This document shows, piece after piece, positions 11,928-36,102 of a DNA stretch of 36,102 nucleotides. Made by a program: the position numbers and the translations under genes. The notes under the pieces were generated by a model. The model did no database searches and was not told the origin of the DNA. It was given only the letters and a program-made list of their open reading frames with translations. The stretch comes from an uncultured Oscillospiraceae bacterium (lineage in GTDB: Bacteria; Bacillota; Clostridia; Oscillospirales; Oscillospiraceae): the NCBI GenBank assembly GCA_944386855.1, contig CALXCR010000006.1, forward strand, positions 1 to 36,102, given 5' to 3'. How positions within the stretch are numbered: the first letter of the stretch is position 1; every line of letters starts with the position of its first letter.

Positions 11928-14756
11928 ATGCACGACAACATCCACATCAAGGGAGCGAGGGTAAACAACCTCAAAAACATCGAGCTTACGATACCGCGCG
12001 ACAAGCTCGTCGTTTTCACCGGCCTTTCCGGCAGCGGCAAATCCTCGCTCGCGTTCGACACGATATACGCGGAGGGGCAGAGGCGGTACGTCGAGTCGCT
12101 GTCCTCGTACGCGCGGCAGTTTCTCGGCCAGATGGAAAAGCCGGACGTAGATTACATCGAGGGTCTGTCGCCGGCCATCTCGATCGATCAGAAGACGACG
12201 AGCAAAAACCCGCGCTCCACCGTCGGCACGGTGACCGAGATATACGACTACCTGCGCCTTTTATGGGCGAGGATCGGCATTCCGCACTGTCCGCACTGCG
12301 GCAGGGAGATACGCCAGCAGACGATAGACCAGATAACCGACCAGGTCATGGCGCTTCCCGAGGGGACGAGAATCCAGATACTCGCGCCGGTCATCCGCGG
12401 CAGAAAGGGCGAGCACGCCAAAATTTTCGAGGACGCAAAAAAATCCGGATATGTGCGCGTCCGCGCCGACGGCATAACGTACGACCTGTCGGAGGAGATA
12501 AAGCTCGACAAAAACAAAAAGCACAACATCGAAGTTGTCGTCGACCGCCTCGTCATCCGCGAAAACATCGCCCACAGGCTCACCGACTCGATAGAAACGG
12601 CGTCTGCCCTCGCCGGCGGGATAATAATCATCGACATCGTCGGAGAGGACAGGGAGCTCAAATTTTCGCAGAATTACGCCTGCGAGGACTGCGGCTTTTC
12701 GATGGAGGAGCTGACGCCGCGAATGTTCTCGTTCAACGCGCCATACGGCGCGTGCCCGACGTGTACGGGGCTGGGCATGCAGCTTAGGGTCGATCCGGAC
12801 GTCATAATACCGAACAAGGGACTGTCCATTATAGAGGGCGCTATATCGGCCTCCGGCTGGGGCAACATAAAAAATGACAGCATCGCGAAAATGTATTACG
12901 AGGCTCTGGCGAAAAAATACAAATTCAAGCTCAACACGCCGATACGCGACCTCCCGCCGGGAGTTTTGGACATTTTGCTCTACGGCACGAACGGCGAGCC
13001 GATCACCCTCAGATACGAGGGAAACGGCGGACGGGCGAGCACGATGACGCGCCCGTTCGAGGGGATAGTCAACAATCTCGAGCGCCGCTACAGGGAGACG
13101 CAGAGCATCGGAATGCGGTGGGAGCTTGAGCAGTACATGACGGAGCACGAGTGCCCTGACTGCCACGGCAGACGCCTTAAGGACGAGATACTGTCCGTCA
13201 CCGTCGGCGGGATAAACATAATGCAGCTGTGCGACATGCCGATAACGGGCGCGCTCGACTTCATAAGCTCGCTCTCCCTGACGGAGACGGAGCAGATGAT
13301 CGGCGCGAATATCATAAAAGAGATCAAAACGCGGCTCGGTTTTTTGAAAAACGTGGGCCTTTCCTATCTCACGCTGTCGCGCGCGTCCGGTACGCTGTCC
13401 GGCGGCGAGGCGCAGAGGATAAGGCTCGCCACGCAGATAGGCTCATCGCTCATGGGCGTTCTGTATATACTGGACGAGCCGTCTATCGGCCTTCACCAGC
13501 GCGACAACAGAAAGCTGCTCGACGCGCTTTTGTCCCTGCGCGACCTCGGAAACACGCTTATCGTCGTCGAGCACGACGAGGAGACGATACTCGAGGCCGA
13601 CTACGTCGTGGATATCGGCCCGGGCGCGGGAGTACACGGCGGCGAGGTCGTGTACACGGGGCCGGTCTCCGGCATACTCGGCTGCGGGGAATCGATAACC
13701 GGGCAGTACTTGAGCGGCCGCAAAAAAATACCCGTGCCGGAGAAGAGAAGAGACGGCAACGGAAAGACGCTCACAATATACGGCGCGGCGGAAAACAATC
13801 TGAAAGACGTAAACGTGACCCTCCCGCTCGGCAAATTCATATGCGTCACGGGCGTGTCCGGCAGCGGCAAGTCGTCGCTCGTAAACGAGGTGCTTTACAA
13901 GGCGCTGGCCGCAGAATTAAACCGCGCGAAGATCCACGCCGGCCGGTACGGCCGTATGGAGGGGATCGAAAACCTCGACAAGGTCATATGTATAGACCAG
14001 TCGCCCATAGGGCGCACTCCGCGATCTAACCCCGCGACGTACACCGGCGTTTTCGGCGATATACGGGAGCTTTTCGCCTCCACGCCCGACGCTAAATCCC
14101 GCGGGTACACGGCGAGCCGTTTTTCTTTCAACGTCCGCGGCGGACGGTGCGAGGCGTGCTCCGGCGACGGGCTTTTGAAAATCGAGATGCACTTTCTGCC
14201 GGATATTTACGTCCCGTGCGAGGTCTGCAAGGGACACCGCTACAACCGCGAGACGCTCGAGGTCAAATACAAGGGCAAGAGTATTTACGACGTGCTTGAG
14301 ATGACGGTCGCGGAGGCGCTGGAGTTTTTTGAAAACCACCCGAAGATCATGCAGAAGCTTCAGACGCTGTCCGACGTCGGGCTCGGCTATGTAAAGCTGG
14401 GGCAGAACTCGACGACGCTCTCCGGTGGCGAGGCGCAGAGGGTAAAGCTCGCGACAGAGCTGTCAAAGCGCAGCACGGGCAACACGCTGTACGTCCTCGA
14501 CGAGCCGACGACAGGACTGCACACGGCCGACGTACACAAGCTGATCGACGTGTTAAACCGACTGACCGACGCCGGCAACACAGTGCTCGTCATCGAGCAC
14601 AACCTCGACGTTATAAAGACCGCCGACCATATCATCGACTTAGGTCCTGAGGGCGGCGACGGCGGCGGCGAGATAGTGTTCGAGGGCACTCCGGAGGAGT
14701 GCGCCGCGTGCGAGCGGAGCTTTACGGGCCAGTTCTTGGCAAAAACACTGAAATAA
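11928..14756 (+). CDS. uvrA: UvrABC system protein A, excision-repair ATPase
   Basis: UvrA finds bulky DNA lesions as a dimer and loads UvrB in nucleotide excision repair. The 942-residue length is standard for this tandem ABC ATPase. Visible in order: Walker [11 protein letters not shown] (31-40), the UvrB-binding region with CPHC near 121, a zinc module [11 protein letters not shown]...CPTC (about 250-280), CPDC near 407, ABC signature LSGGEAQRI near 490, second Walker [10 protein letters not shown] near 642, zinc module CEACSGDG...CEVCKG (about 742-765), and second LSGGEAQRV near 830. Both ATPase sites look intact. AAGGAG lies 9 bases before the ATG. The gene stands alone, bracketed by two similar hairpins. 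Many bacteria keep uvrB and uvrA adjacent; here they are split and on opposite strands. Confidence 0.97.
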
Positions 14757-20749: not shown

Positions 20750-20847
20750 CTACGTTGCATCGTAGCTCCTGAGTCTAATAATATACCCTGTGTAATAGTT
20801 TGTCAACAGTTTCGTGCAATTTTTCTATTATGCAGGGTATGTTGCTG

Positions 20848-20897
20848 TTTACATAAGCTCTGTTGTATGGTATAATATCCGTAAAACGGATATTATA
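20848..20897 (+). promoter_or_regulatory. promoter covered by a 12-bp palindrome, likely operator of the S24 repressor
   Basis: TTTACA (20848-20853), a 17-base spacer ending in TGG, and TATAAT (20871-20876) make a good promoter. The -10 is the first half of a perfect 12-bp palindrome (arms 20871-20882 and 20886-20897, 3-base AAA centre) extending over the likely start site. The 13-base word GGTATAATATCCG (20869-20881) recurs at 20980-20992, nearer the repressor gene, and a third GGTATAAT lies on the minus strand at 20953-20960. Autorepression by the following gene is my inference. Confidence 0.55.
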
Positions 20898-21143
20898 TTT
20901 CGATTCAAGTCCTTTTTCTCGCCGCTTGCGCGGCAACCGAAAAAGACGACGATTATACCATTCCGGCGTTGCCGTCACGGTATAATATCCGCATAATAGA
21001 TAGTATGCCTGCCAATGAAGTCGTTTTTCACATCCGTACGGGCATGGAGGGCAAAAAACCGGCGTCCATGCCGCCGCGGGCGGTATGACATACATGCAAA
21101 TCCGTACAATAAAATTCTGTATTTAACATGGAGGAGGGGGCTT

Positions 21144-21893
21144 ATGCTGTTTACGGAAAAGCTTGACGCGCTGATGGCGGAGCGCGGTATAACACGCGGA
21201 AAGCTTGCCGCCGCCACCGGCATACCGTACAACACGATAGTCGGTTTCTATGCCAAGGGGTATAAAAATATAAAGCTTTCAACGCTGCGCCGCATTTCCG
21301 AGTATTTCGGCGTGTCTATCGACGTACTTGCGGATGACGACGCGCCGCTGCACGGCACTGAGGAGGTCTCGCCCGCCTTTCCGGAAAAAAAATATTCCGC
21401 CCTGTCGGAAAAAGAGCGGAATTTTGTAAACGATATGATCGACGGACTCCTGGATCTGCGCGATGACGGCGCGGAGGAGGAAAAAGAGCCCGTCTATATA
21501 CGCGAGTACGTCACGCCTGCGGCGGCCGGGTATGCCTCGCCTGCCGAGGGGGAGGATTACGTCCTGATCCCGCGCGGGGACGACGTGCCTGCGGCGGCCG
21601 ATTTCGCCGTGCGCATTTCCGGCGACAGCATGGAGCCGTATATCGCAGACAGATCGCGCGTCTATGTCTCGCGCACTACCGAGCTCACCGACGGCGACGT
21701 CGGCATCTTCTTCGTCGACGGCGATATGAAGTGCAAGCAGTACTGCGAGGACACGTTTGGAAATATATATCTGTTTTCGCTCAACCGCGAGAGGAGCGAC
21801 GCCGATATGGCGATTTTCGCCTCAAGCGGGATAACCGTTTTCTGCTTCGGCAAGGTACTTTTAAAAAAGCGCCCGCCGCTGCCGAAAAGCTGA
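21144..21893 (+). CDS. XRE-family repressor with S24 (LexA/CI-like) self-cleavage domain
   Basis: This 249-residue repressor has an N-terminal XRE helix-turn-helix (residues 5-62: ITRGKLAAATGIPYNTIVGF) and a C-terminal S24 peptidase domain. The nucleophile lies in SGDSMEPYI (Ser162). A Lys in MKCKQY (Lys198, or less likely Lys196) fits the general base. PAAAGY around 125-130 offers an Ala-Gly bond (128-129) in the position of LexA/CI cleavage sites. The parts needed for RecA-stimulated self-cleavage are therefore present, so it may respond to DNA damage. I chose ATG 21144, 4-10 bases after GGAGGAGGGGG, rather than earlier in-frame codons. It stands upstream of recD2, 162 bases away. It is not canonical LexA, whose N-terminal domain is a winged helix. 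Confidence 0.88.
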   Translation: MLFTEKLDALMAERGITRGKLAAATGIPYNTIVGFYAKGYKNIKLSTLRRISEYFGVSIDVLADDDAPLHGTEEVSPAFPEKKYSALSEKERNFVNDMIDGLLDLRDDGAEEEKEPVYIREYVTPAAAGYASPAEGEDYVLIPRGDDVPAAADFAVRISGDSMEPYIADRSRVYVSRTTELTDGDVGIFFVDGDMKCKQYCEDTFGNIYLFSLNRERSDADMAIFASSGITVFCFGKVLLKKRPPLPKS

Positions 21894-21896
21894 TTT

Positions 21897-22010
21897 TGCC
21901 GCCGAAACGGCGACACTGTTTTACGCCCCTATAAGGGGCGAGGATTTACCGCGCTGTAAGCGCGATAATTGCCCACTGAGTGGGCGGCAAACAACACGCT
22001 GGGCGAAAAC
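21897..22010. repeat. four short hairpins between the repressor gene and recD2
   Basis: Successive inverted repeats are CGCCG/CGGCG near 21900-21914, CGCCCC/GGGGCG (21924-21940), CGCGCT/AGCGCG near 21950-21964 and GCCCAC/GTGGGC (21971-21985). Loops are 3-5 bases and there are no clear T-runs. Any readthrough from the repressor gene into recD2 would cross them. Confidence 0.6.
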
Positions 22011-22055
22011 CCGGCGGCATTCGGCCGCAAAAAAACGGGAGGGAGGATCTCCGAT

Positions 22056-24269
22056 TTGCCTTCAGACACGACGGAATATATTGAAATAACAGGCTCTATC
22101 ACGGCCGTCATATACGCAAACGACGATAACGGGTACACCGTTTTGCGCCTTCGCGAGGCGTTGACCGGCGAGGAGATAACGGTCGTCGGCTGTATACCCG
22201 GCGCGACGGACGGCGAGACGCTGACCGTGACGGGAGTATGGACGACGCACCCGTCGTACGGCGAGCAGTTCCGCGCGCAGACCGCCGTAAGGCAGCTTCC
22301 GACCGAGCGGAGCGACATTTTTGCGTATCTGGCCTCCGGCGTTATAAAAGGCGTTGGTGCGGCGACGGCGTCGCTTATCGTCGGCAAATTCGGCGCGGAA
22401 GCTCTCTCCGTTATCGCCGACGAGCCCGAAAAGCTCGCCGAGATACGCGGCATAAGCCCTCAAAAGGCCCGCGCTATCGGCGCGGACTTTCGCAAAACCT
22501 CCGCCATGCGTGCGCTTATGGAGTTTTTGACGGCGCACGGGCTTAAAACGTCGCTCGCCGTGCGGCTTTACGGCACATACGGCGACATGGCCATCGACTT
22601 GATCCACGATAACCCCTATCTTATAACGCGGGAGCAGTTCGGCGCGGATTTTTACGAGGCGGACGCACTTGCGCTGAGCCTTGGATATTCAAGCGACTCT
22701 CCGCAGAGGGTGGAGGCCGCCGTTTTGTTCGAGCTGCGACACAACCTGACAAACGGGCACACGTTTTTGCCGGCGGAAAAGCTCGTCGCAGCGACTTGTC
22801 AGCTTATCGGCATGGAGTCGGACGCGGTTGAGACCGCGCTGCGTGTTTTGACTGAAAACGGCCACATCGTCCGCGAGACGGTCGCAAACTGCGACGCGTG
22901 CTATCTCGAGGGCATACACCGCGCGGAGAGCTATTCGGCGGAGAGACTTCTTCAAATGGCGTCGATACCGGCATCGTCTGCGCGCGACATAGAAAAGACG
23001 ATAGACGATATAGAGCGCGAATCGGAGCTTGAGTACGCCGAATTACAGCGCGAGGCGATACGCCTTGCCGCACAAAGCCGCGTCATGGTGCTGACAGGCG
23101 GCCCGGGAACGGGCAAAACGACGGCGGTGCGCGCTATCCTCGCCGTTTTCGACAAGCTTAAGCTCAATACGGAGCTCTGCGCCCCAACCGGCCGCGCCGC
23201 AAAACGCATGAGCGAGCTCACCGGGCGCGAGGCTCAGACGATACACCGTCTGCTCGGCGCGGGATTTTCCGAGGACAAGACCGAGGTGCTGTTCCGCCAC
23301 GACGAAAACGAGCCGCTCGACATCGGCGCGCTTATCGTGGACGAGTCGTCCATGATAGATATCCAGCTCATGCACGCGCTATTGTCGGCGCTTAAGCCGA
23401 CGTGCAGGCTGATCCTCGTGGGAGACTCAGACCAGCTCCCGCCCGTTGGGCCGGGAAACCCTTTTTCCGACATCATAAGGAGCGGTGCGATCCCCGCCGT
23501 GCGCCTTACGGAGATATTCCGTCAGGCAAAGGAGAGCGGCATCGTCCGCGCCGCACACGAAATAAACGGCGGCACACTGCCTGATTTTTCCGTAAAATAC
23601 GGCGATATGTTTTTTTTAAACAGAAGCTCGCGCCAAAAAACGGCGGAGACGATAGTCGAGCTTGTATCAGAGCGGCTGCCGAAAAACATGGGTATCCACC
23701 CGTCGCAGATACAGGTGCTCTCCCCGCAGAAAAAGTACGAATCCGGCACGTTTAATTTAAACCTGCTGCTTCAGGCGGCGGTAAACCCCGCCTCGCCGGA
23801 CAAACATGAGGTCGACCGCGTGGGCTTTACATTCCGCGAGGGAGACCGCGTCATGCAGGTGCGCAACAATTACGATATGATGTGGCGCTCTCCCGACGGG
23901 GCTGACGCGGGCACGGGCGTCTTTAACGGCGATATCGGGACGATCACCGGGATCGACTTAAAGCGTGAGCTTGTGACGGTCGATTTTGAGGACAGGATCG
24001 CCGACTACTCGTTTGACAGCCTGACGGAGCTTGAGCCGGCATACGCCATGACGGTACATAAATCGCAGGGCAGCGAATACCGCGCCGTCATACTGTCGGT
24101 CACAAATGCCGCGCCGTCACTTATGACGCGAAGCGTCCTGTATACGGCCGTTACAAGAGCGAGAGAGCTTCTCATTATCGTGGGTGACCGTACCGCCGTC
24201 GCCGCCATGGTAAATAACGACCGCCGGCAGAAGAGGTACTCTGGCCTTAAAACGCGGCTTTCAAAATGA
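22056..24269 (+). CDS. recD2: ATP-dependent RecD-like DNA helicase RecD2
   Basis: RecD2 is a 5'-3' superfamily 1B helicase that works without RecBC in Firmicutes and protects against DNA damage and fork problems. The 737-residue length fits. Visible: an N-terminal OB-like region, helix-hairpin-helix-like segments (GVIKGVGAATASLIV, AEIRGISPQKARAIG), Walker A TGGPGTGKTT near residue 347, motif Ia CAPTGRAAKRM, Walker B IVDESSMID, motif III LVGDSDQLPPVGPG, motif IV RLTEIFRQA, motif V MTVHKSQGSEY and motif VI YTAVTRARELL. I chose a TTG start at 22056, nine bases after GGAGG. Longer in-frame starts reach into hairpin DNA. It lies downstream of an S24 repressor with self-cleavage features, suggesting damage control, which is inference. 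Confidence 0.94.
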   Translation: MPSDTTEYIEITGSITAVIYANDDNGYTVLRLREALTGEEITVVGCIPGATDGETLTVTGVWTTHPSYGEQFRAQTAVRQLPTERSDIFAYLASGVIKGVGAATASLIVGKFGAEALSVIADEPEKLAEIRGISPQKARAIGADFRKTSAMRALMEFLTAHGLKTSLAVRLYGTYGDMAIDLIHDNPYLITREQFGADFYEADALALSLGYSSDSPQRVEAAVLFELRHNLTNGHTFLPAEKLVAATCQLIGMESDAVETALRVLTENGHIVRETVANCDACYLEGIHRAESYSAERLLQMASIPASSARDIEKTIDDIERESELEYAELQREAIRLAAQSRVMVLTGGPGTGKTTAVRAILAVFDKLKLNTELCAPTGRAAKRMSELTGREAQTIHRLLGAGFSEDKTEVLFRHDENEPLDIGALIVDESSMIDIQLMHALLSALKPTCRLILVGDSDQLPPVGPGNPFSDIIRSGAIPAVRLTEIFRQAKESGIVRAAHEINGGTLPDFSVKYGDMFFLNRSSRQKTAETIVELVSERLPKNMGIHPSQIQVLSPQKKYESGTFNLNLLLQAAVNPASPDKHEVDRVGFTFREGDRVMQVRNNYDMMWRSPDGADAGTGVFNGDIGTITGIDLKRELVTVDFEDRIADYSFDSLTELEPAYAMTVHKSQGSEYRAVILSVTNAAPSLMTRSVLYTAVTRARELLIIVGDRTAVAAMVNNDRRQKRYSGLKTRLSK

Positions 24270-24790
24270 GGATTTTGCCGCCGCCCAAGGTGCGGGGTAT
24301 TTTGTTGCGCAAGGCGCAACTGTCGCGAGTGCGATCTCTTTTTTCGCCCCATGCATGGGCGATTTGCCACCGCCAAGCGGCGGTTTTGCGACTATTTCTT
24401 TTACATATGCAAAAGAAATGGTCGCCCTAAAGAAAACATAGCAAAGGGGAGTATACCCCTTTGCAAACCCCCGCACTTCGTGCGCCTAATTACGACATGG
24501 ACAAAGCCACATAAGACAGATTTTACGGGCGACGATAGGCTGCGCCGTAGCTTCACGGCCATATCTGCAACCATGTATGTGCGTAGCAGGCAGAAACAAA
24601 AACACAAACACTCCGTTCGGTTTGTGTTTTTGAGAGGAGACACAGCGGAATGAGCGCTCTTTTGCCCCAAAGGGCAAAACAAGCGATATGGAGCTTGTGT
24701 CGACGAGAGCGCGGCAACCCCTCGCCTGCGGAGCAGGCGACAAAAAACGTTGTCGCCTGAGCGGCGACGTAATGCCCGCTCGGCTGGCAA
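24270..24790. repeat. large hairpin-mosaic repeat cluster left of mreB
   Basis: No gene is visible. Modules in order: GTTGCGC/GCGCAAC at 24304-24320; a TTTCTTTT/AAAAGAAA hairpin at 24388-24420; AAAGAAAACATAGCAA with a GGGG..CCCC hairpin at 24429-24468; a roughly 95-base element at 24496-24590 (ATGGACAAAGCC ... ATGTATGTGCGTAG); a 34-base hairpin at 24598-24631 nearly identical to 11874-11907; the large module to 24705; GCCTGC/GCAGGC near 24723-24738; and the GTCGCC/GGCGAC module at 24742-24774. Several recur inverted to the right of mreB. Confidence 0.75.
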
Positions 24791-25026: not shown

Positions 25027-25212
25027 CCGCCCGGCCATAAGAGCACTGTACCATAAGCGGCGCGGACATACCGAAACTGCATTGAAAATTTAGTTTATAC
25101 CGCTCGCCGCATTTTGACTGCGGCAACCGCGGCACATGCAGCGTATCTCCATCAGCCGCAGGGAGATACGCGGTCTCGATACACTATCCGGCGGCAGAAT
25201 GGAGATACTACT

Positions 25213-26247
25213 ATGATTTTTGGGCGCGATATAGGTATAGATCTCGGCACGGCGACCGTTATAGTCTGTGTAAAGGGCAAAGGTGTTGTGACGAGAGAGC
25301 CGTCTGTCGTCGCGATGGACCGAAACACCGGCAGAGTACTTAAAGTAGGTATGGCGGCGCAGCGCATGATGGGCAGAACTCCCGGCAATATCGCCGCGAT
25401 ACGCCCCATGCATGACGGCGTCATATGCGACTATGAGATGACACAGCGCATGCTGAGAGAGCTTGTGCGCAAAGTCACGTCGTTTTCGCTGTTCAAGCCG
25501 CGCATCGTCATATCCGTACCGTCCGGCATAACCGAGGTAGAAGAGCGGGCCGTCATCGACGCGGGCATACAGGCCGGCGCGAGGAAAGTGTACCTAATAG
25601 AAGAGGCCGTAGCCGCCGCTCTCGGCGCGGGGCTTGATATATCGCAGGCGGAGGGCAACATGGTAGTTGACATCGGCGCCGGCACGACGGATGTCGCCGT
25701 CATAAGCTTATCGGGCGTCGTGCAGGCCGAGTCTATAAAGGTCGCCGGCGACTCGTTTGACGATGCGATCGTGAAATACATCCGCAAAAAACACAACGTG
25801 CTTATCGGCCGCTCTACGGCGGAGGATCTCAAAAAGACTATCGGCTGCGTTTTCCCGCGCGCGGAGGAGACCGTCGTCGAGGTGAAGGGCAGATGCCTTA
25901 TGACGGGGCTTCCGAAAATGGTGTCGATCAACTCCACCGAGATGATCGAGGCGTTTGACGAGGTGTCGCAGCGCATCCTCGACGCGATACATTCGGTGCT
26001 CGAAAACACGCCGCCGGAGCTTGTCGCCGATATATCCGACAACGGCATCGTCCTTACGGGCGGCGGGAGCCAGATTTTCGGTCTTGACCGCCTTGTGGAG
26101 AGCAGTACAAACATAAAAACGATGCTCTCCGACGACGCGGAACTCTGCGTGGCGTACGGCATCAACAAGTCGCTCGAATGGATAAACGATATGCAGGACG
26201 GCACGATAAATTTAAACCGCCGGCAGCAGCTCGCCGGACAAATGTGA
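25213..26247 (+). CDS. mreB: MreB/Mbl-type rod-shape actin homologue
   Basis: This 344-residue bacterial actin polymerises on the inner membrane face and guides lateral cell-wall synthesis. Nucleotide-pocket motifs are clear: phosphate-1 GIDLGTATVIV (8-18), SVPSGITEVEERAV (101-114), EEAVAAALGAGLD (130-142), phosphate-2 VVDIGAGTTDVAVIS (151-165), and adenosine motif LTGGGSQIFGLD in the last quarter. I chose ATG 25213, 8 bases after GGAG; the frame stays open upstream but that part does not resemble MreB. No mreC or mreD follows, so it is a solitary paralogue, as Mbl is in many Firmicutes. It is bracketed by hairpin clusters. Confidence 0.94.
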   Translation: MIFGRDIGIDLGTATVIVCVKGKGVVTREPSVVAMDRNTGRVLKVGMAAQRMMGRTPGNIAAIRPMHDGVICDYEMTQRMLRELVRKVTSFSLFKPRIVISVPSGITEVEERAVIDAGIQAGARKVYLIEEAVAAALGAGLDISQAEGNMVVDIGAGTTDVAVISLSGVVQAESIKVAGDSFDDAIVKYIRKKHNVLIGRSTAEDLKKTIGCVFPRAEETVVEVKGRCLMTGLPKMVSINSTEMIEAFDEVSQRILDAIHSVLENTPPELVADISDNGIVLTGGGSQIFGLDRLVESSTNIKTMLSDDAELCVAYGINKSLEWINDMQDGTINLNRRQQLAGQM

Positions 26248-35550: not shown

Positions 35551-36102
35551 TCAGTTTTTGGAGTTGATATTTGCCGTTATATCGCGTATTATCTCGGAAA
35601 GCTCCGAAGATTTCGGCAGCATATCCTCGATCTTTGATATGGAGGACATGACCGTCGTGTGGTCGCGCGAGAATATCTCGCCGATATCTATAAGCGGAAG
35701 ATTTGTTATCGTGCGTATGAGATACATCGATATCTGCCGCGGCAGTACGATCTTTTTCGTCTGCGACCTGCCTTTGAGCTCTTCCGGCGTCAGCGAGTAG
35801 AACTTTGCCGTCTCCTCGATGATGACCTCCGGCGTGGGGATATATTCTGTCTTTTCGCGGAACATGTCCTTTATGATCTTCGACACGGTCGTGACGGTGA
35901 GCGGCTCGTCCATTATGTCGTTGTACGCCTTTACCTTTTTGACGGCGCCCTCTATCTGGCGGACGTTTGACGTCATGTTTTCCGCTATATACTGCACTAT
36001 ATCCTCCGGCAGGACTATGCCGAGCTGCATCGCCTTGTTGTTTATGATAGCGACGCGCGTCTCATAATCCGGCGGCTGTATATCGGCGATAAGGCCGGAT
36101 TC
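35551..36102 (-). CDS. dnaA: chromosomal replication initiator DnaA, C-terminal part (runs off the window)
   Basis: DnaA binds oriC and melts it to start replication. The visible 183 residues begin in the AAA+ domain (GLIADIQPPDYETRVAI), pass through sensor 2 (NVRQIEGAVKKV, with its Arg), and end in domain IV. The box-recognition motif reads IGEIFSRDHTTVMSSISKIE, where the usual GRDHTTV has Ser in place of Gly. The 5' part of the gene lies outside the window. The stop is TGA. Confidence 0.97.
   Translation of the reverse strand, partial: ESGLIADIQPPDYETRVAIINNKAMQLGIVLPEDIVQYIAENMTSNVRQIEGAVKKVKAYNDIMDEPLTVTTVSKIIKDMFREKTEYIPTPEVIIEETAKFYSLTPEELKGRSQTKKIVLPRQISMYLIRTITNLPLIDIGEIFSRDHTTVMSSISKIEDMLPKSSELSEIIRDITANINSKN

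Follow-up and report, generated by a model that had tools for sequence, protein, structure and literature searches.

Repressors that combine an XRE-type helix-turn-helix (HTH) domain with an S24 peptidase domain define the HdiR-like regulators, HdiR itself having an N-terminus of the XRE type, and in the O_R region of phage lambda the promoter of the CI repressor and a divergent promoter are served by three operators. HdiR, IrvR and FddR are established examples of such 'non-LexA SOS-like' regulators. HdiR, of Lactococcus lactis and streptococci, is described as a RecA-dependent S24 regulator resembling LexA that controls several SOS genes where the host itself lacks LexA (PMC1592510, PMC5742171), with an ATCAG-type operator and several genes under its control (PMC1592510) and embedded degrons at its autocleavage site (PMC5742171). 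For IrvR of Streptococcus mutans, S224 and K260 at a spacing of 36 and an Ala-Gly cleavage that exposes a C-terminal degron are reported, as are cleavage without RecA and repression of the adjacent irvA (PMC7101444). FddR of Francisella is presented, in the part of the source used here, as a co-opted, autoregulated phage repressor with a palindromic operator (GTG-N11-CAC) in its own promoter and a divergent unit with a conserved divergent gene (PMC13148647). The gene analyzed here encodes an XRE-S24 repressor and is followed by recD2 in a 36,102-nt stretch of DNA from an uncultured Oscillospiraceae bacterium (the window: positions 1 to 36,102 of contig CALXCR010000006.1, assembly GCA_944386855.1). 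We give a probability of about 0.72 to the reading that it is an orphan, phage-derived, damage-responsive autorepressor, and that its adjacency to recD2 arose by rearrangement and does not represent a conserved control circuit. Among the matches listed in the open-access literature, there was no paper on this repressor or on a repressor-recD2 pair, nor any work on self-cleaving repressors of Oscillospiraceae from the gut.

21144-21893, plus strand: XRE-S24 (LexA/CI/HdiR-like) repressor, 249 amino acids (aa), from Pfam, alignment, AlphaFold2 model and fold comparison
21525-21530, plus strand: codons of Ala128-Gly129, the predicted self-cleavage bond (26/26 invariant); the N-terminal fragment would end TPAAA
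21627-21629, plus strand: codon of Ser162, predicted nucleophile (computed position, alignment)
21735-21737, plus strand: codon of Lys198, predicted general base (computed position, alignment)

The repressor open reading frame (ORF) has a GGAGG sequence 5' of its ATG start, and the encoded protein matches Peptidase_S24 (1.8e-14), HTH_26 (2.6e-9) and HTH_3 (6.5e-7) in Pfam, the S24 score (PF00717) being 53.9 bits against a curated cut-off of 23.3. It is not a canonical LexA, scoring 24.1 bits against the cut-off of 110.95 of the LexA model TIGR00498; the C-terminal catalytic fold and residues are common to both, whereas the N-terminus here is of the HTH_26/HTH_3 type. The XRE DNA-binding domain, Ser162, Lys198 and the Ala128-Gly129 bond had all been proposed in a sequence-only reading of this DNA, and the computed positions agree with it, with a Ser-Lys spacing of 36. 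T124, P125, A126, A127, A128, G129, S162 and K198 are invariant in all 26 sequences of an alignment that includes the window protein and in which the other members are 39–69% identical to it, so the catalytic residues and the bond are not a chance pattern. The repressor shares with HdiR the XRE HTH and S24 domains, and with IrvR the S24 domain, the Ser-Lys spacing of 36 and the predicted Ala-Gly bond; IrvR represses the adjacent irvA and is cleaved independently of RecA, whereas cleavage here would probably be stimulated by RecA.

An AlphaFold2 model of the protein (mean per-residue confidence, pLDDT, 85.8; predicted TM-score, pTM, 0.52) has the LexA/UmuD catalytic fold. Residues 118–241 of the model match LexA (3jsp_B) with a Z score of 14.5 and a root mean square deviation of 2.1 over 113 aligned residues, the next matches are lambda CI and UmuD, and the N-terminus resembles the HTH of SinR and the 434 repressor; Foldseek agrees with these matches. 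A sequence search of solved structures with the repressor returned no match at E <= 0.001. PADLOC gave a weak match for the repressor (capH, 1.8e-6) and a helicase-type match for RecD2.

The control region of the repressor gene contains a pair of facing promoters and three operator-like sites, with a copy of a dispersed repeat on the repressor side.

20750-20765, no strand: predicted operator O1, CTACGTTGCATCGTAG, just past the expected divergent transcript start (sequence comparison)
20778-20806, minus strand: divergent promoter TTGACA-17-TATTAT (11/12), sigma-70-type, directed at the MATE gene from its 3' side (promoter scan)
20783-20798, no strand: predicted operator O2, ATACCCTGTGTAATAG, within the divergent promoter, in the spacer between its -35 and -10 (sequence comparison)
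20825-20840, no strand: predicted operator O3, CTATTATGCAGGGTAT, flanked by the -35 boxes of both promoters (sequence comparison)
20848-20876, plus strand: repressor promoter TTTACA-17-TATAAT (11/12), its -10 inside the repeat element (promoter scan)
20866-21006, plus strand: copy of a dispersed repeat of about 140 bp with palindromic ends, at the repressor -10 (BLAST, pattern search)

Each of O1, O2 and O3 is an imperfect palindrome of 16 bp whose half-site is near HTAC[CG], so that, like HdiR-like regulators, this repressor has predicted palindromic operators in its own control region. The layout of three operators and a divergent promoter is kept in nine of ten close loci (window included), and in all nine of these the spacing is 31–33 bp from O1 to O2 and 41–42 bp from O2 to O3, close to three and four helical turns. 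The divergent promoter scores 11/12 in nine of the ten close loci. Among 55 distinct regions upstream of repressor orthologues and of relatives further away, it reaches at least 10/12 in 36, where dinucleotide shuffles predict 3.0. The 24 regions taken as controls from upstream of recD2 and recA contain no such promoter, but they are weak controls that lie partly inside operons. Lambda CI resembles the repressor both in fold and in the facing-promoter layout with three operators; the O_R operators of lambda are closer together than the 31–42 bp seen here, and a search of the divergent side in the close group turned up no cro-like gene. In its logic, a phage repressor that controls itself and a divergent unit, the nearest known system is FddR, going by the part of its description cited above. 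FddR differs in its operator and in having a conserved divergent gene, whereas here the promoter is conserved and no conserved gene was found.

The puzzle of this locus is that the divergent promoter is conserved and no conserved gene was found with it. In seven of the nine array loci, an ORF of 115–548 aa on the repressor strand ends 3–117 nt before O1, so that divergent transcription would enter this ORF, the MATE gene in the window, from its 3' end; no such ORF of at least 90 aa was found by script before O1 in the other two (L040 and L116). A minus-strand ORF with a Shine-Dalgarno-like sequence was present in the window alone among eight close loci scanned (the window and L036-L042). It specifies 99 aa antisense to MATE, and we doubt that it is a gene. 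No minus-strand ORF of 40 aa starts near the divergent promoter in L116 and L119, and no small ORF shared by the close loci could be made out on their divergent side. Among orthologues further away, the divergent ORFs differ from one another and were labeled, from reading their sequences, as ArsR-like, small Cys-rich and Cro-like HTH. There is a small chance, somewhat above that of any rival explanation considered below, that the repressor, O1–O3 and the divergent promoter form a portable damage-inducible cassette in which the promoter is selected and the flanking genes vary by genus. If so, a neighboring gene, or an antisense or short RNA, would be placed under damage control; for the window this predicts a transcript antisense to the MATE exporter gene at its 3' end. 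As a separate observation, a small ORF with the motif CPEHPxIxxxLxxG is divergent from the repressor in two regions from one genus (L043 and L044), and a similar ORF (L195:14837-15079, genome G003) lies beside a gdhA-like gene next to a contractile phage-like element.

The repressor very probably cleaves itself in response to DNA damage and governs its own two-way promoter. In the mechanism we propose, dimers of the repressor would bind O1, O2 and O3. Occupied O2, in the spacer, and O1, past the start, would shut the strong divergent promoter, and binding at O3 would tune the promoter of the repressor itself. Upon DNA damage, filaments of RecA, which is encoded in the same genome (549.7 bits), would stimulate cleavage of Ala128-Gly129 by Ser162/Lys198; the DNA-binding half, ending TPAAA, would be lost or degraded, and both promoters would open. 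We infer this sequence, RecA-stimulated cleavage and then loss of the N-terminal half, by analogy with known systems, and the new TPAAA end could likewise serve as a C-terminal degron, as in IrvR and HdiR.

The palindromic ends of the dispersed repeat have the form ATAATATCCG-N5-CGGATATTAT, and BLAST finds 28 pieces of it in this genome, window copy included; several pieces have two palindromes 110–115 bp apart, and some copies are in tandem. O3 starts 319 nt before the start codon in the window, compared with 81–97 nt in eight relatives. With the repeat between O3 and the start codon, the leader of the repressor is about 260 nt long, and it is folded (z -2.6). The perfect palindrome at 20871-20897 was considered as an operator and rejected as part of the dispersed repeat, because it has 34 sites in the genome at up to three mismatches (none for the reversed-pattern control) and the 28 BLAST pieces include it.

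The gene downstream was correctly named in the sequence-only reading as recD2, on the same strand.

21894-22055, plus strand: gap between repressor and recD2, 162 nt, with strong tandem hairpins and terminator-like matches
22056-24269, plus strand: recD2 (SF1B helicase), 737 aa from TTG 22056 (Pfam, TIGR01448)
11928-14756, plus strand: uvrA, the usual upstream neighbor of recD2 in relatives (NF001503, 1559.7 bits against 1147)
25210-26247, plus strand: mreB, the usual downstream neighbor of recD2 in relatives (profile matches, recD2 flanks of relatives)

RecD2 matches the TIGR01448 equivalog with 817.6 bits (cut-off 500). A start at TTG 22056, with GGGAGGGAGG upstream, fits better than one at 21969, and the gap to the repressor is thus 162 nt. 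Since both genes are on the same strand and no promoter-like site was found in this gap, the repressor could be imagined to switch recD2 in an SOS-like manner, by read-through from its autoregulated promoter. This is unlikely. Short GC-rich hairpins in the gap fold far better than shuffles (z -4.2) and are joined by weak terminator-like matches at 21896-21913 and 22038-22052, and the eight operator-like sites that score best in the window all fall outside the gap; the best three are all upstream of the repressor and fit the divergent promoter. A second stretch of short GC-rich hairpins, seen by eye, occurs 3' of recD2 at 24270-24400.

Conserved linkage in relatives, proposed in the sequence-only reading as a check of a recD2 switch, was not found. 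No RecD2 match (tBLASTn, E <= 1e-8) occurred in 48 regions of 3.4–17 kb around repressor orthologues and paralogues, two of which are paralogue regions of the same genome and some of which represent distant or partial matches, nor in 30 further repressor loci from titled genome records, several on the same contigs as the 48. RecD2 itself is present in 19 of 20 genomes searched. The reverse test is the stronger one: no repressor was found within 1.5 kb on either side of recD2 in any of 18 relatives (the genome of the window excluded). These flanks carry uvrA or uvrB (15), a comF-like gene (15), mreB (16) and a small membrane-like ORF without a family match (14), and where mreB is missing (L237, L238) the locus is truncated by the end of its contig. 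The usual order in relatives is uvrA or uvrB, then recD2, then the comF-like and mreB genes; recD2 belongs to a different gene order there. In the window, 7.3 kb separate the end of uvrA (14756) from the start of recD2 (22056), and this interval holds a DUF6034 gene, an AIM24 gene, the MATE gene and the repressor. Set against the order in relatives, the adjacency of repressor and recD2 is best read as a lineage-specific insertion or rearrangement between uvrA and recD2; the genus is represented by one genome in the sample. Adjacency to recD2 in one genome is thus not evidence of a repair circuit.

Several points weigh against the reading of this gene as an orphan damage-responsive autorepressor. 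In the structural model, the cleavage loop is poorly predicted (block means of 67 and 60, with residues 132–135 below 50), as is the linker at residues 71–80 (49), and cleavage may possibly be RecA-independent, by analogy with IrvR. The operators were first chosen by eye; in later leave-one-out scans of whole loci, 23 of 27 ranked among the best three sites of their locus and none of the 27 fell below sixth place. L038 and L042 have a weak O1 (scores of 4.0 and 5.8), rival sites score as high as an operator in L036 (14.9), L119 (15.0), L116 (14.5) and L040 (13.8), and the close orthologue L039 has an O3-like site only and no divergent promoter. No conserved gene was found downstream of the divergent promoter in the close group. 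With respect to linkage, 13 of the 48 repressor regions are shorter than 10 kb, and L036 and L042 are truncated on the downstream side of the repressor; recD2 of these two genomes sits elsewhere, by uvrB and mreB.

The sequence-only reading had also considered a non-LexA SOS-like switch plausible. What stands of this is a protein of the LexA/CI type with an XRE domain that is probably damage-responsive, judging from its sequence, in a genome that encodes RecA and has no LexA above the curated cut-off (the metagenome-assembled genome, MAG, is 94% complete); what falls away is its role as a switch for recD2. The lack of LexA could suggest that the repressor replaces it as general SOS regulator of the lineage. 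LexA is above the cut-off in 87 of 150 genomes of the family and is rarer in carriers of the repressor (19/41) than in non-carriers (68/109), a weak difference (Fisher p 0.095) in counts uncorrected for the incompleteness of MAGs. Carriers were the 41 genomes with a best match of at least 131 bits, including the genome of the window and four partial matches, while G093, G094 and G129 (111–121 bits, 35–38% identity) and all weaker matches were counted as non-carriers. Three of the closest relatives (G021, G024, G119) have both proteins, and the recA regions of six genomes contain no operator-like site, the best score being 8.5, away from the recA start. A genome search with MTAYNNTGCANNRTAK, allowing up to one mismatch, gave 85 sites, while the reversed pattern gave 46. 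The seven exact matches comprise O1 and O3, one at 35987 of the window, and four others whose context was inspected and shows no convincing target; the pattern misses O2, so a wider regulon may exist. Replacement of LexA by the repressor is very unlikely. HdiR controls several genes, and here only the repressor's own control region was found.

The same genome has other genes of this type. On contig C55 (L077:7982-10968), a second XRE-S24 repressor is followed on the same strand by a Y-family polymerase gene (IMS, IMS_C), and if the genome has an SOS-like repair unit, this pair is a stronger candidate for it than the repressor-recD2 pair. On contig C140 (L076, 3139-4785), an S24-type match with 59.2 bits to the LexA model, below its cut-off, directly precedes a UmuC-like polymerase gene.

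A phage or element origin of the repressor is likely from its relatives. Matches occur in 20 phage records, most of them annotated as CI-like repressors (the best, at 41%, has no annotation), and viral contigs encode relatives with up to 42% identity over the full length. The remark in the sequence-only reading that the repressor does not adjoin phage genes is true of the window, but four orthologues do have phage-like genes nearby: contractile-tail genes are found beside those in G118, G023 and G025 and near that in G054. The same is seen for one viral contig. From these neighborhoods, and from the higher frequency of a contractile phage-like element in carriers (21/41 against 31/109, p 0.012), an association that may be phylogenetic, it could be argued that the repressor provides immunity for a prophage or phage-like element resident in the genome and controls it in trans. 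We consider this quite improbable, a little less so than replacement of LexA and more so than a recD2 switch, given that its own genome has no match to the baseplate J protein of the element at E <= 1e-20 and that, in 19 element regions scanned, the two operator-like sites with the best scores (G024 and G140) are inside coding sequence. Being present in many genera of the family, and having a two-way promoter that is conserved, the repressor would offer a handle on damage responses in these bacteria.

The contractile element itself is a syntenic unit of about 13 kb seen in other genomes (L189-L207, L043-L045, L060 and L239). Its gene order, TerS-TerL-portal-protease-capsid-sheath-tube-LysM-hub-gp25-baseplate J-Gp48/DUF2313, is kept in 19 of 19 fetched regions as far as each extends, except that L189 showed no tube gene. 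Pfam supports TerL, capsid and Gp48 with matches above cut-off, and the portal with one below it; sheath, hub and baseplate were assigned from PHROGs, while TerS and protease, without a Pfam match, are guesses from position. One copy of the element, at more than 250 bits with the baseplate model, is present in each of 52 of the 150 family genomes, sometimes, as judged by eye in several genomes, adjoining housekeeping genes, and no integrase or repressor was recognised by eye within it in L189. The gdhA gene recurs in these neighborhoods: it lies between repressor and element in G054 (L045:2670-4970), a gdhA-like gene is seen by eye beside the element in G003 (L195:13398-14744), and in the G066 region (L047) gdhA is beside the repressor with no tail genes. 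DNA packaging like that of gene transfer agents has been described in Oscillospiraceae (Nat Commun 2026, PMC12946183), the operons being podovirus-like and from Faecalibacterium in the part of that paper cited here, and the contractile element is a candidate for a gene transfer agent or a PBSX-like element.

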